DNA from: Oscillospiraceae bacterium
GTDB lineage: Bacteria; Bacillota; Clostridia; Oscillospirales; Ruminococcaceae
Assembly (NCBI GenBank): GCA_021201135.1
Contig: JAJQGT010000006.1
Location: forward strand, 471,254-535,253
Reading direction: 5' to 3'
DNA: 64,000 nt
Under the pieces are notes generated by a model. The model did no database searches, had not been told where the DNA came from, and saw only the letters and a list, made by a program, of their open reading frames with translations. Position 1 is the stretch's first letter; every line of letters begins with the position of its first letter. Below, piece by piece: positions 56,039 through 60,236 of this stretch. Made by a program: the position numbers and the translations under genes.

Positions 56039-57867
56039 TGTGTCTTTCTCCCTCCCTTGAAGATTCCGCAACCGAAGTGGTCACAGCGGAGGCATCTTGA
56101 TGCTTCCTGGCAGGATTCCTTCTCGGTCATCTTGATTTCCATCAGCTCGAAGTCGTTTCTTCTCTCACCGGGTTCGCGCTCGGACATGTTGATTCTTCCG
56201 CAATACGGACGGTCAGTGAGGTTCGGATCGGGAATTTCGACATCGGCGGTGATGGTGTGATTATAGCCTAAGTAGTAGTCGATGTTTGCAGCAGCAACCT
56301 TACCAGCAGCGATAGCTCTGATAGCGGTCTTCGGGCCGGTTACGCAGTCGCCTCCGGCGAATACACCGGGAGCGTTCTCGACTTCTGTCCAGTCATCGCC
56401 CTTGATAACGCCTCTTACAACCGGGATTCCGGAGGATTCGAGCTTGTAGAAGTCGATTCCCTGTCCGATTGCAACGAGCACTACGTCGCAGGGGATTCTC
56501 TTGTCCTCAAGACCTGAGGGACTTGGATTCATTCTGCCGCCCTTTATAAGACCGGGCATATAGGGAGTAGCCCAGAGAGCCGCAACCTTGCCTTCTTCAT
56601 CGGTTTCTATCTTGAGAGGAGCGTGGAGGTCGACCATTATTGCGCCTTCTGCGATTGCACCGTCAACCTCTTCGGGCAGAGCGGTCATGTCCTCCTTACG
56701 GCGACGATAGACGATTGAAACGCTTTCGGCACCGCATCTGATAGCGGAACGCGTGCAGTCCATGGCGACATTACCGCCGCCGATTACGCAGACCTTCTTG
56801 CCGGTGAGGTCGGGGATATTTCCGTCGCCGATTCCGCCAAGGAAGGAAACCGCAGACCAGACGCCCTCGGCGTCCTCGCCCTCGATTCCGACCTTCTTGT
56901 CGGTGTGTGCGCCGATTGCGATATAAACGGCGTCATACTCCTCACGGAGCTTTTCCATTGTGTATTCGCCCTCGCCAACCTTGGTATTGAGCTTGACCTC
57001 AACGCCGGTCGAGAGGATGCAGTCGATATCGCTCTGGAGACGCTCACGGGGAAGTCTGTATGCGGGGATGCCATAGATAAGCATTCCGCCGAGCTTCGAG
57101 TGCGCCTCGAAAACGGTGCACTGGTGCCCCATAAGCTGAAGATAATAAGCACATGAAAGACCGGAGGGTCCGCCGCCGACGATTGCAACACGCTTTCCTG
57201 TGGACGGAGCGCATTCGGGTGCCGGAACAACTCCTGCTCCCTCAACAGCCGCACGCTTGAGACCTCTGATATTGACAGGTGCATCAAGAAGGGTTCTACG
57301 GCATCTCGTCTCACAGGGATGCTCACAGATAAGAGCGCAAGCGGTCGGGAACGGGTTGTCCTTTCTGATGAGCTTGACGGCATCGGCATATCTTCCCTCG
57401 CCTACGAGAGCGATATAGCCCGGGATGTCGACGCCTGCGGGGCAGTTGCCGACGCAAGGAATGCTCATCGGAGTTCCGGCGAAGCAGTGATGCTTCTCGA
57501 TATGGGATATGTAGTCCTCGCGGAAACCGTCGAGTCCCTTCAAAACCATCTTTGCCGCCTCAAATCCTATGGCACAGTCAGCCGATTCGGCGATTACATG
57601 CGCCAGTTTTTCGATTTTTGAAAGAGTGGTGTCGTCTCCCCTTCCATTGAGGACATCCTCCAATAAATTACCCAACTGTGCAAGTCCCACTCTGCATGGT
57701 ACGCACTTGCCGCAGGTCTGGGCGTGGCACATTCTTAGAAAAGCCAGTGTCAGGTCGACGGGACAGACATCCGAAGAACTTGCGGCAATACGCCGCTCCA
57801 TGTCCTTATAAATGCCCTCGACAACCGTCTCCGCACGACTTTCAGTCATTAGTGCAAGTCTTGACAA
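56032..57867 (-). CDS. NuoF-C-terminal / GltD-like fused flavoprotein, hydrogenase partner
   Basis: About 611 residues from TTG 57867 (AAAGGAAG 9 bases upstream; an ATG at 57849 is the alternative). The first about 110 residues hold the 4Fe-4S end of NuoF (FLRMCHAQTCGKCVPCRVGLAQL) without the FMN/NADH-binding part. The rest is a GltD-type NAD(P)-dependent oxidoreductase: two 4Fe-4S motifs (CVGNCPAGVD, CALICEHPCETRCRR), FAD site VAIVGGGPSGLSCAYYL, NAD(P) site VCVIGGGNVAMDCTRSA and AGGDCVTGPKTAIRAIAAG. It ends with a Cys-rich tail (CLRCDHFGCG). It probably passes electrons between NAD(P)H and HydA. Confidence 0.9.
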   Translation of the reverse strand: MSRLALMTESRAETVVEGIYKDMERRIAASSSDVCPVDLTLAFLRMCHAQTCGKCVPCRVGLAQLGNLLEDVLNGRGDDTTLSKIEKLAHVIAESADCAIGFEAAKMVLKGLDGFREDYISHIEKHHCFAGTPMSIPCVGNCPAGVDIPGYIALVGEGRYADAVKLIRKDNPFPTACALICEHPCETRCRRTLLDAPVNIRGLKRAAVEGAGVVPAPECAPSTGKRVAIVGGGPSGLSCAYYLQLMGHQCTVFEAHSKLGGMLIYGIPAYRLPRERLQSDIDCILSTGVEVKLNTKVGEGEYTMEKLREEYDAVYIAIGAHTDKKVGIEGEDAEGVWSAVSFLGGIGDGNIPDLTGKKVCVIGGGNVAMDCTRSAIRCGAESVSIVYRRRKEDMTALPEEVDGAIAEGAIMVDLHAPLKIETDEEGKVAALWATPYMPGLIKGGRMNPSPSGLEDKRIPCDVVLVAIGQGIDFYKLESSGIPVVRGVIKGDDWTEVENAPGVFAGGDCVTGPKTAIRAIAAGKVAAANIDYYLGYNHTITADVEIPDPNLTDRPYCGRINMSEREPGERRNDFELMEIKMTEKESCQEASRCLRCDHFGCGIFKGGRKTQW

Positions 57868-57905
57868 GCTATCACGCTTCCTTTCATACAAACATTTCGA
57901 CAAAT

Positions 57906-57934
57906 ATTATAACACTATTTTTAAATATTTGCAA
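57906..57934 (-). promoter_or_regulatory. consensus promoter of the hydrogenase operon
   Basis: Minus strand TTGCAA at 57929-57934, 17-base spacer, TATAAT at 57906-57911. Confidence 0.8.
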
Positions 57935-58036
57935 GGGCGGGACTGCAAATTGACGAAATAATTTGTAAAAGATAGGTTGCCGAGAGATACCTATGCTGTA
58001 AAATTTTTTCTTTCGGTGAAATTTTTTGCCCAAAAA

Positions 58037-58064
58037 TTGACACTATTTAGGTGACGGTTGAAAT
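58037..58064 (+). promoter_or_regulatory. likely promoter of the micropeptide/ABC exporter unit
   Basis: TTGACA at 58037-58042, 16-base spacer, TGAAAT at 58059-58064. The -35 is perfect, the -10 matches four of six. Confidence 0.5.
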
Positions 58065-58100
58065 TTTTCAGCCGAGCGAAAACCGAAAGGAGTCTTTTTA

Positions 58101-58172
58101 ATGAAAAAAGCAGTATTAATCAGAACAAGTTCGTCTTCTTCGAAAACACATCCGGGTGCTTCTCACCATTAG
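58101..58172 (+). CDS. 23-residue Ser/His-rich micropeptide, candidate ABC-exported peptide
   Basis: ATG at 58101 with a strong GAAAGGAG 8 bases upstream, stop TAG at 58170. The product starts MKKAVLIRT, continues with five consecutive Ser, and ends KTHPGASHH. There is no signal peptide, no Cys and no hydrophobic core. The ABC half-transporter begins 111 bases downstream on the same strand. The good ribosome binding site and lone position argue that it is translated. It may be a secreted peptide, a peptide signal or a translated leader. I do not recognise the family. Confidence 0.6.
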   Translation: MKKAVLIRTSSSSSKTHPGASHH

Positions 58173-58283
58173 CTATCCCGAATGATGTGTGATTAGCCCC
58201 CTTAAAAAAAGGTCTTATGGTGGTTTGCCAAGCGAACGCAAGCTGTCAACTCGGGAATCTGTTTATGAAAGGACTAATTCGAA
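58173..58283 (+). promoter_or_regulatory. leader between micropeptide and ABC exporter
   Basis: A 111-base gap in which TCCCGA (about 58175-58181) can pair with TCGGGA (about 58251-58256), bracketing the region; no U-tract terminator. AAAGGA lies 11-12 bases before the exporter ATG. It may form a folding switch coupled to translation of the micropeptide. Confidence 0.35.
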
Positions 58284-60065
58284 ATGAAATTTTTTAACGA
58301 ACTCAGAAAAACTATCAACCTCACCCGTTACGCCCTTGTTAATATCATCGGCGGCATCAGAGCCCTGCCCTATATCATGATGACGCTTCTTAAGTCGGTC
58401 GTAAATGCGGCGGCGCTCGTGTCCTACACCCTTCTCCCCGGCTTCATCATCAACTACCTGATGGCAGGAGAAATCAGAACCGTGGTCATTCTGGCGGCAA
58501 CCTTAGTGGCAACGCCGTTTGTGCAAAATTCATCCAATTCGCTGATTTCAGTCATTTTTGACAAGATGCAGCTTGGGCTTTCCACCGAAGTTCATGCGGA
58601 GTTTCACAACTACACCAGCCACTTGGACTACGAATATTTCGAGTCACCGAAAGTTCTTGACATGAAGGAACGTGCTACGAGAGTATGCGATTCCGTATTC
58701 GGAGTAGTAGACTGCCTCAATTCGATTCTTTCGTCTATTATCAGCTTCGTTGTGATTCTGTCTGTTGTTGCTTACATAAACCCGCTCATGGTCGTATTCA
58801 TTCTCTTTATAGTTCTACTGAACTCTATGCTCACAAAGAGACTGAACGTCAAGAATCATGAGATAGGTATGAAGCAAGACAATTACTGGAGAGTATACTG
58901 GGGTGCAACATTCCAGATGGAAAATCCGTCATACGCCAAAGAGATCAGAGTCTATGACATCAGCGGAATGCTTCTTGATAACTTCCGCAAGGTCATGAAA
59001 AAGGGCAACGAGCTCGCACACAAGAGAACCGTTGAGTGCAACAAGACCTACTTCTTCCAGGCGATTGTCAACATCGTCAAGGACGGAGTTATCTATGGGT
59101 ACTCGATTATCTCGGTGCTCCTGGGCAGGATGGCTATCGGTACAATGTCCATCTATATCAGTGCGGCAAACCAGTTCTCAAGCAACATCGGAAGCATCGT
59201 GAACTCTTATCTGAGCCTGTCGAGGCTCTGCATGGAGGTCGAAGAGTATAAGAAATTCTTCGAGCTTCCGCAGAAACAGCAGTCCTTCGGCACCCGCAAG
59301 CCGAGCTTCGGGAAGAACTCAACTATCGAGTTCAGGAACGTCTCGTTCAAGTACCCGGGAAGCGAGAACTATGCTCTTAAGAACATGAATCTCACCATCC
59401 GTGGCGACGAGAGACTCTGCATCGTCGGAGAGAACGGCTCGGGCAAGTCAACCTTCATCAAGCTTCTTTCGAGACTGTACTTCCCCACTGAGGGCGAAAT
59501 CCTCCTTGATGGCGTGAACATCAACGAGTATGATTACAGGGAGTATCAGAACATGTTCTCGGCGGCGTTCCAGGATTTCGAAAAGTTCTATCTGCCGCTC
59601 TCGAAGAATATTGCGCTCGATAAAGACGTTGATGAGGCAAAGCTCGACAACATCTGCGAAAGAATCGGGCTTACCGACTTTGTCAAGAAGCTTCCGCACG
59701 GCTACGATTCCGCTATCGACAAGTGGGTTGACGAGGACGGAGTTAATCCCTCCGGCGGCGAGCTCCAGAGAATCTCGATTGCAAGGGCTGTATACAGCGA
59801 CAGGGACATCTATATCCTTGATGAGCCTACTGCCGCACTCGACCCGAATGCGGAATATGAGATTTACACCCAGTTCCACAACATCATCACCGACAAGTGC
59901 GCTGTTCTTATCACCCACAGACTTTCGGCGGTTCAGTTAGCCGATAAAGTGGCTGTGTTTGAAAACGGACATGTCGAAGAGTACGGCACGCACGATGAGC
60001 TCTATGCCAGAAAGGGCATCTATACAGAGATGTTTGATAAGCAGGCTGAGTTCTATAGACAATAG
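58284..60065 (+). CDS. ABC half-transporter, peptide/lipid exporter type
   Basis: 593 residues: an N-terminal six-helix ABC-membrane domain (about 20-310), then the nucleotide-binding domain with Walker A GENGSGKST near 378, Q-loop AAFQDFEKFYLPL, signature PSGGELQR (Pro for the usual Leu), Walker B IYILDEPTAALD and switch His in VLITHRLSAVQ. There is no N-terminal C39 protease domain, so the cargo would need no leader cleavage by this protein or would be processed elsewhere. Works as a homodimer by family rule. The preceding micropeptide is a candidate cargo. Confidence 0.93.
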   Translation: MKFFNELRKTINLTRYALVNIIGGIRALPYIMMTLLKSVVNAAALVSYTLLPGFIINYLMAGEIRTVVILAATLVATPFVQNSSNSLISVIFDKMQLGLSTEVHAEFHNYTSHLDYEYFESPKVLDMKERATRVCDSVFGVVDCLNSILSSIISFVVILSVVAYINPLMVVFILFIVLLNSMLTKRLNVKNHEIGMKQDNYWRVYWGATFQMENPSYAKEIRVYDISGMLLDNFRKVMKKGNELAHKRTVECNKTYFFQAIVNIVKDGVIYGYSIISVLLGRMAIGTMSIYISAANQFSSNIGSIVNSYLSLSRLCMEVEEYKKFFELPQKQQSFGTRKPSFGKNSTIEFRNVSFKYPGSENYALKNMNLTIRGDERLCIVGENGSGKSTFIKLLSRLYFPTEGEILLDGVNINEYDYREYQNMFSAAFQDFEKFYLPLSKNIALDKDVDEAKLDNICERIGLTDFVKKLPHGYDSAIDKWVDEDGVNPSGGELQRISIARAVYSDRDIYILDEPTAALDPNAEYEIYTQFHNIITDKCAVLITHRLSAVQLADKVAVFENGHVEEYGTHDELYARKGIYTEMFDKQAEFYRQ

Positions 60066-60193
60066 AAGTTGCCTTTGGCAACTTCGGAAGTTCGGCAAGC
60101 CGAACTTCCACCCCGCAGGCGAAGTTTGCGAAGCAAATCTTCCGAAGTTCGCCTGCGAACTTCTGCGCTCCCCTTTCAGGGGAGGCTTTTTTT
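60065..60193. repeat. cluster of palindromic intergenic repeats, copy 2
   Basis: Successive hairpins: GAAGTTGCC/GGCAACTTC (60065-60085), GGAAGTTCGGC/GCCGAACTTCC (60086-60109), further GCAGGCGAA/TTCGCCTGC pairing, then CTCCCCTTTCAGGGGAG (60168-60184) followed by T7. The last element is a good plus-strand terminator for the ABC exporter. Confidence 0.8.
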
Positions 60194-60207: not shown

Positions 60208-60236
60208 TTGACATTACCCCATAGTTATGCTATAAT
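60208..60236 (+). promoter_or_regulatory. consensus SigA promoter of the Crp/Fnr-ABC importer unit
   Basis: TTGACA at 60208-60213, 17-base spacer, TATAAT at 60231-60236. Confidence 0.88.

Follow-up and report, generated by a model that had tools for sequence, protein, structure and literature searches.

The subject of this analysis is a 23-codon open reading frame (ORF) that lies upstream of an ATP-binding cassette (ABC) exporter half-transporter gene in a 64,000-nucleotide stretch of Oscillospiraceae DNA, the whole of which is referred to here as the window. Modelling of its RNA, together with comparison of related genomes, indicated that the ORF is conserved, that it most likely is translated and acts in cis, and that it most likely forms part of a translational attenuator of the exporter gene. 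That it is a cis-acting translated leader is considered highly probable; the complete statement, in which this leader forms a ribosome-operated, ermC-like translational attenuator of the exporter, is put forward with less assurance but is still judged probable. One unusual feature is that the leader is retained after loss of the exporter.

The initial annotation had described a 23-codon gene with a strong ribosome-binding site (RBS), and this description was borne out, the ATG at position 58101 being located 8 nucleotides after the AGGAG of GAAAGGAG and the TAG stop codon at 58170-58172. The exporter gene was found 111 nucleotides downstream, as had been reported, and the five consecutive Ser residues (Ser10-Ser14), the His-Pro pair and the terminal His-His were all present in the peptide. 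Of the two roles that had been suggested, an exported or signalling peptide and a cis-acting leader, the second was favoured and the minimal exported peptide less so. The leader was preferred because the conserved block crosses the stop codon into non-coding DNA, where 3 of 29 bases vary among 11 leaders; because the end of the ORF forms a hairpin (P2) that is followed by a stem able to cover the Shine-Dalgarno (SD) sequence of the exporter gene; because, in the three pairs open to clean comparison, the synonymous sites of the ORF are more conserved than those of the exporter gene; and because the leader persists in three genomes that lack the exporter.

Conservation of the leader ORF and its flanks

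A protein search located the 23-mer in 11 of the 31 genomes of the genus, and a covariance model of the leader recovered the same 11 genomes, each with a score of at least 139.6 bits. An exporter orthologue was present in eight of the 31 genomes, with 82-96% identity to that of the window (the window copy aside), and in all eight the leader was located in front of it. The refuting condition named in the initial annotation, a lack of conservation of the peptide upstream of orthologous transporters, therefore did not apply. The peptides fell into two groups. In group 1 (eight genomes) the sequence was MKKAV[LS][IV]..SSS.S[KQ]THPG[AT]SHH and in group 2 (three genomes) it was MKT[KR].SVK[IV]NISS[LF]NSSTHPG[AV]SHH. 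The N-terminal half drifts, the last eight codons change little and the C-terminus THPG[ATV]SHH was common to both groups.

The ORF DNA was identical in four genomes; three neighbouring genes differed from those of the window at 18-35% of synonymous sites. The proportion of differing synonymous sites (pS) was compared between the ORF and the exporter gene in the three clean pairs among loci L025, L026 and L027, the frameshifted L028 and the window (whose locus, L014, is too short) being left out, and was 0.13-0.31 in the ORF versus 0.49-0.55 in the exporter gene. The group that lacks the exporter gave values of 0.00-0.12 in the ORF versus 0.30-0.50 in neighbouring genes. The low pS of the ORF relative to these genes points to constraint on the nucleotides themselves.

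There were also signs in the sequences of constraint on the reading frame. The mean BLOSUM loss per changed codon was -2.85 in frame, compared to -5.14 and -5.98 for the two alternative frames, and pS clearly exceeded its non-synonymous counterpart (pN) in 8 of the 10 pairs of the five distinct group-1 sequences (L025-L028 and L026-L028 were the exceptions) and in two of the three group-2 pairs. The SD sequence, start codon and stop codon of the ORF were kept in all 11 leaders, and the only length change within it was of 6 nucleotides, in frame; loops nearby differ in length by 1-3 nucleotides.

These results bear on the proposal that the conserved element is a structured RNA that binds a ligand or a protein, and that the ORF is incidental. 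Strong conservation of non-coding DNA and the hairpins P2 and P4 (described below) would suit such an element; the conserved SD sequence, start and stop codons, the single in-frame length change and the frame-specific conservation of the ORF would not. In addition, a search of positions 57850-58400 against Rfam (E ≤ 10) returned four matches, none near threshold, the best scoring 16.5 bits where the gathering score is 70. A structured RNA with an incidental ORF is therefore regarded as very unlikely.

The same data were used to weigh peptide export, in which the whole 23-mer or only its C-terminal THPGASHH would be the unmodified substrate of the ABC exporter and would constitute a minimal exported or signalling peptide. 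The conserved C-terminus and the constrained reading frame are consistent with this proposal, as is the finding that some relatives of the exporter adjoin Cys-containing, precursor-like small ORFs. However, the pattern of conservation is the reverse of that of a precursor with a fixed leader and a variable core, since it is the N-terminal half that varies and THPG[ATV]SHH that is kept. The 23-mer contains no Cys and neither a maturase nor a protease is adjacent, the nucleotide-level constraint runs past the stop codon into non-coding DNA, the codons of the ORF are themselves base-paired, and three genomes without an exporter orthologue have retained the leader. Export of the peptide is accordingly considered unlikely.

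Predicted hairpins and a possible alternative pairing at the exporter SD sequence

In P2, ACACATCCGGG (codons T16-G19, segment 1) pairs with CCCGAATGATGTGT, which starts after a gap of 4 bases beyond the stop codon and forms segment 2. The stability of P2 corresponded to a z-score of -3.77 in the window, where 1 of 200 shuffles was as stable, and of -2.93 in L029; in the second group of three genomes one A-U pair was replaced by G-C, and L027 was mismatched at that place. Directly after P2, GATTAGCCCCCTT..CAG can pair with ..CTG..AAAGGACTAATTC, which contains the exporter SD sequence, to form the long imperfect stem P4. This stem was predicted in all 11 leaders when the stretch was folded by itself, and jointly with P2 in eight of them; its middle was found in two registers, the paired G shifting along with the register. 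Among the seven fragments for which z-scores of P4 were obtained (window, L023, L024, L025, L026, L029 and L030), P4 and its apical hairpin P3 exceeded shuffles in stability by a wide margin in L023, L025, L026, L029 and L030 (z-scores of -3.1 to -5.2). In the alignment of the 11 sequences, 93.0% of structure cells were paired compared to 91.5% in shuffles, and the covariation score was 0.114 versus 0.084 +/- 0.008 in shuffles (none of 500 reached 0.114; slid partners gave at most 0.055), the tested structure having been derived from the same 11 sequences.

Segment 2 (UCCCGAA) is also complementary to UUCGGGA just 5' of the exporter SD sequence, the site of segment 5, over 7 base pairs in eight of the 11 leaders and 6 base pairs in the other three; the probability of such complementarity arising by chance was 0.004-0.064 per sequence. 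In models of nascent RNA ending just past segment 5, the probability of this 2:5 pairing was at least 0.98 when segment 1 was occupied and at most 0.10 when it was free, in all 11 leaders. The SD core AGGAC was unpaired with a probability of 0.20-0.40, again in all 11, either in the absence of a ribosome or when one at the stop codon covered both arms, and with a probability of 0.71-0.99 if the 2:5 pairing was held, a figure that rests on that pairing being forced. On the assumption of a ribosome footprint of 15 nucleotides on each side of the P site, a ribosome with its P site at codons 12-21 covers segment 1 partly or fully and leaves segment 2 free; at the stop codon it covers the segment 2 core as well.

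We infer that the ORF is translated, that ribosomes pause on it and that a switch operates as follows. In the resting state P2 and P4 would form and the exporter SD sequence would be buried; alternatively, a terminating ribosome would cover P2, P4 would form and the SD sequence would again be buried. Upon induction a ribosome would pause with its P site at approximately codons 12-21, covering segment 1 but not segment 2, and the freed UCCCGA(A) would pair with UCGGGA, immediately upstream of the SD sequence, once that site had been transcribed. The 2:5 pairing would block closure of P4, so that the exporter would be translated. Pausing that depends on the nascent chain is plausible because the C-terminal residues vary little, and the inducer may be an antibiotic or another translation stress, perhaps a compound that is itself removed by the exporter. 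Phenicol-type sensing, suggested by the richness of the peptide in Ser, Ala and Thr, was considered as well but not adopted.

The folding results for the predicted switch were mixed, being clear for nascent RNA and weak at equilibrium, and several results, beside the forced pairing and the origin of the tested structure noted above, count against a translational attenuator. Because segments 2 and 5 are nearly invariant, covariation lends no support to their pairing. Neither the number of pairs changed on both sides (5 versus 3.3 in shuffles, with 75 of 500 shuffles reaching that number) nor the number of further pair types (14 versus 13.9; 319 of 500) was unusual. When P2 was included, the window, L027 and L031 preferred other minimum-energy folds; the z-score of P4 was 0.22 in the window, no better than shuffles, and -1.26 in L024. 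A single fold of the complete window leader likewise did no better than shuffles (z-score of -0.07), so that the structure is not evident from folding one sequence once. Burial of the SD sequence in single sequences did not go beyond that obtained with shuffled spacers (fraction at or below the observed value, 0.07-0.71). The third-position test of the ORF was not significant, with 8 of 17 variable columns (p = 0.17), and 3 of 7 likewise.

When 14 further bases had been transcribed, the 2:5 probability was still at least 0.98 in nine of the 11 leaders, but dropped to 0.68 in L029 and 0.52 in L031. At equilibrium, with the full RNA and segment 1 occupied, the 2:5 pairing won in five leaders (window 0.99, L022 0.77, L023 0.83, L024 0.75 and L026 0.88) and lost in six. 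Opening of the SD sequence was assessed with two measures. The AGGAC core, with RNA up to the start codon, opened clearly at equilibrium in two of the 11 leaders only (from 0.37 to 0.68 in the window and from 0.21 to 0.41 in L023); the wider GAAAGGA, with the RNA extended by 25 bases, opened clearly in none of them (from 0.52 to 0.40 in the window). A ribosome mask moved codon by codon at equilibrium clearly increased access to the SD sequence in the window and in L029-L031, but added at most 0.18 in the other seven leaders. These mixed equilibrium results suggest that in most of the 11 leaders the switch would need co-transcriptional folding.

A leader peptide could also control transcription, or act through coupling to Rho as proposed for toiL-topAI, and not purely at the SD sequence. 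With the same anatomy, a Rho site could conceivably become accessible while the exporter gene is untranslated, and ribosome-mediated transcription attenuation of an ABC transporter is described for bmrB-bmrCD (PMC4191407). Nevertheless, a simple consensus scan of the + strand between 58172 and 58284 revealed no site resembling an intrinsic terminator, and the stem covers the SD sequence, which fits control of translation; an attenuator of transcription, or one coupled to Rho, was judged decidedly unlikely. A further proposal, attenuation by histidine codons, would have a shortage of charged histidine transfer RNA stall the ribosome at His17, which lies inside segment 1, or at His22. By geometry, stalling at either residue would fall within the inducing range of codons, and His17, His22 and His23 occupy matching C-terminal places in all 11 leaders. 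However, there are just three His residues in the 23 codons and no long run of them, the downstream gene encodes an exporter-type ABC protein and not a histidine gene product, and the His codons are also constrained by P2, which together make this proposal highly improbable. The features of the locus are listed with their coordinates in Table 1.

Table 1. Positions of the leader elements, the exporter gene and the downstream hairpin in the window.
Feature	Position	Strand	Description
P1, putative short hairpin immediately upstream of the leader ORF RBS	58055..58074	+	CGGTTGAAATTTTTCAGCCG; similar stems with changed letters readable in relatives
Leader ORF SD sequence	58085..58092	+	GAAAGGAG; read from sequence, invariant in 11/11 aligned leaders
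Leader ORF (upstream ORF, uORF)	58101..58172	+	23 codons, MKKAVLIRTSSSSSKTHPGASHH followed by stop; in 11/31 genus genomes
P2 hairpin	58146..58190	+	segment 1 (58146-58156, codons T16-G19) paired to segment 2 (58177-58190, beyond the stop codon)
Segment 2 core	58176..58181	+	UCCCGA; alternative partner of segment 5
P4, long imperfect stem	58191..58279	+	predicted; GATTAGCCCCCTT.. (anti-SD strand) opposite ..AAAGGACTAATT in exporter SD sequence
P3 hairpin at P4 apex	58218..58248	+	sequence varies, pairing largely kept
Segment 5	58251..58256	+	UCGGGA next to exporter SD sequence; present in 11/11; can pair with segment 2 if P2 is open
Exporter SD sequence and spacer	58267..58280	+	GAAAGGACTAATTC; identical in 11/11 leaders
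ABC exporter half-transporter gene	58284..60065	+	593 amino acids, without C39 peptidase domain
Intrinsic-terminator-like hairpin past exporter gene	60168..60184	+	CTCCCCTTTCAGGGGAG, then T-rich

Retention of the leader without the exporter, and its distribution

The three genomes that carry the leader without an exporter orthologue were G010, G012 and G014 (loci L029, L031 and L030, respectively), in which only paralogues of at most 48% identity were detected. The leader and GAAAGGACTAATTC were intact in each of them, the exporter was gone and an ORF of 25-26 codons (MIYFYGLTSPAIATYEQEPLLDGLMG and variants) was in its place, approximately 120-135 nucleotides after the leader ORF. The first 30 bases of this short ORF were identical to the start of the exporter gene at 19-21 positions, a comparison for which no control was run. 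L029 also matched the last 23 bases of the exporter gene (none of 500 shuffles was as good); such a 3' trace was not significant in L030 (139 of 500 shuffles) or L031 (111 of 500). The resemblance at the start and the 3' match in L029 support a deletion of the exporter gene in place.

Differences between the short ORFs affected 10.0 of 17.2 synonymous versus 9.0 of 60.8 non-synonymous sites for L029-L030, 4.0 of 17.3 versus 4.0 of 57.7 for L029-L031, and 9.0 of 16.5 versus 7.0 of 58.5 for L030-L031. Fisher tests on rounded counts gave p values of approximately 6e-4 for L029-L030 and L030-L031; third positions accounted for 10 of 22 variable columns, which was not significant (p = 0.16). A search with the short peptide recovered the same three of the 31 genomes, with E values no higher than 2e-7, and one more at E = 0.9. 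The short ORF may be under selection; it could encode a new small product controlled by the same switch, or it could be a decaying remnant. It is tentatively suggested, as a possibility that we regard as doubtful, that the switch outlived the exporter, so that the attenuator was kept and now governs the 25-26-codon ORF; this would make it a general switch from translation stress to a small product, with a micropeptide taking the place of a transporter as its output. If the attenuator reading is correct, this lineage represents a natural experiment on change of an attenuator target.

Outside the genus the leader was not encountered in the samples that were searched. A family-wide search with a DNA pattern of the leader (up to 3 mismatches) gave matches in 2 of 396 sampled genomes, both within the genus, to which eight of the 396 belong; an order-wide search with the covariance model under strict filters matched one of 295 sampled genomes, that of the window itself, and the DNA pattern was found in no viral contig. 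Among 43 exporter loci in named genomes, the leader ORF was present at seven orthologues (L034-L040), the records of which are metagenome-assembled Oscillospiraceae or Ruminococcus sp. It was found at none of the other 36 loci (L041-L076), either with a peptide regular expression or with five of six DNA words of the leader; the sixth word, CATCCGGG, recurs in three of these 36 loci.

Five further matches to the covariance model, in G008, G007, G000, G010 and G001, were weak (at most 28.9 bits, E of 0.0009-0.87) and were rejected as chance. Four of them (G008:C7:255570, G007:C9:21503, G000:C9:430945 and G010:C39:11232) represent a recurring site at which mainly an A-rich stretch was matched, and the gene that follows this site encodes at least 505-514 amino acids, being truncated by the locus end. 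This recurring stretch has no relation to the leader, and the fifth match, in G001, was unrelated. At L028 (G011:C19:119932-121709) the leader is intact and the exporter orthologue is divided between two overlapping frames of 369 and 270 amino acids, which may reflect a frameshift, an assembly error or a pseudogene.

Comparison with known systems, and the exporter and its relatives

In ermC, as described in PMC5418344, a short leader ORF precedes a buried RBS, which an alternative fold exposes when the ribosome stalls. The window likewise has a short upstream ORF with its own SD sequence; its downstream SD sequence may be buried and an alternative pairing may free it. Unlike the ermC type, its leader would control an ABC exporter, and it was found in one lineage. 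The peptide does not resemble ErmDL, MefAL or MsrDL as these appear in PMC10314930, according to which MsrDL and MefAL act on transcription. It has no Arg/Lys-X-Arg/Lys motif near its end, and the group without the exporter has Lys-Thr-Lys/Arg at residues 2-4. 

The bmrB-bmrCD system of Bacillus subtilis, in which a leader ORF controls an ABC transporter by transcription attenuation, shares with the window a small ORF before an ABC transporter and alternative stem-loops, which in the window are predicted, and translation of the ORF is required in bmrB (PMC4191407). It differs in that no intrinsic terminator was found in the window by the scan described above, the SD sequence is the apparent target and there is a single half-transporter gene, not a pair. 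In toiL-topAI of Escherichia coli an upstream ORF senses several classes of antibiotic at a structure that occludes an RBS, and stalled ribosomes bring relief (PMC12121999). The window resembles it in having an upstream ORF and a structure that would occlude an RBS; the downstream gene there belongs to a toxin-antitoxin system, and the likeness noted here is one of description. In the literature searched there was no mention of the peptide string HPGASHH or a longer one, and no paper on leader-peptide attenuation of an ABC transporter in Oscillospiraceae was found.

If the proposed mechanism is correct, it adds a ribosome-sensing switch that exposes an SD sequence to the control of an ABC exporter in gut Clostridia that are represented here by metagenome assemblies only. 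It would also provide a ready reporter for the substrate of the exporter, since an agent that causes pausing at codons 12-21 may be linked to that substrate or to a stress.

The 593-residue exporter matched ABC_tran in Pfam (E ≤ 1) and, at the same threshold, matched neither ABC_membrane nor the C39 peptidase domain, the absence of which had been stated in the initial annotation. Its top NCBIfam matches were general exporter models, far under their cut-offs (best 25 of 190 matches), and its closest solved relatives by sequence were exporters of the ABCB1 type and MsbA (best 60 of 285). Neither Pfam (E ≤ 1) nor NCBIfam (E ≤ 10) yielded a match to the 23-mer.

The upstream neighbour of the locus is a 623-residue oxidoreductase-like protein, named by eye, on the opposite strand, and the gene downstream of the exporter encodes a Crp-family regulator. 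Neither of these is a modifying enzyme, and none was expected from the earlier description of the locus; inspection of the ORFs between 52000 and 64000 by eye, and of four proteins by Pfam, revealed no adjacent modifying enzyme or peptidase. A perfect sigma-70 consensus (TTGACA-17-TATAAT with TG) was observed at 60208-60236, before the regulator gene and a set of substrate-binding, permease and ATPase-like genes, the last two named by eye. These genes probably belong to a transcription unit separate from that of the exporter.

Cys-rich radical S-adenosylmethionine (SAM) peptide clusters of the CcpM-like type with an ABC exporter are another system for comparison. What they share with the window are relatives of the exporter (37-48% identity, with one partial match of 63%), and some of these relatives adjoin a small ORF preceded by an SD sequence. 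At four of the 36 non-orthologous loci (L042, L046, L059 and L060) a Cys-containing ORF of 50-55 amino acids with an SD sequence ends 63-145 nucleotides before the exporter gene, and at L072 a similar ORF of 57 amino acids is located before a short gene that in turn precedes the exporter gene. The radical SAM proteins of L042 and L060 most closely matched CcpM (E = 1.3e-114 and 1.3e-110, respectively) but fell under the model cut-off, and the ORFs at L058, L059 and L072 were alike in length and order, by eye, to those of the radical SAM loci. Parts of this exporter branch therefore probably move peptides elsewhere. The window differs from these clusters in lacking both Cys in the peptide and a maturase, and in the link between its small ORF and an RNA structure; peptide export was given a lower weight there because no such enzyme is near and the conservation pattern of the small ORF is the wrong one.

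Other features were observed at these loci. An AMP-binding ligase-like protein (below cut-offs) is encoded near L060, and at L046, which belongs to an assembly that also holds the leader (its contig prefix is shared with L040), an FkbM-type methyltransferase is found downstream instead of the CcpM-like radical SAM protein. L050, L054, L063 and L071 have other small ORFs with an SD sequence near the exporter gene, outside the Cys-containing pattern or at a contig end. Arrays of paralogous ABC half-exporters were present at L041, L043, L048, L049 and L051, several of them with small sigma-factor-like and lipoprotein-like genes that were named by eye; L048 and L051 lie in assemblies that also hold the leader, as judged by contig prefixes shared with L035 and L040.

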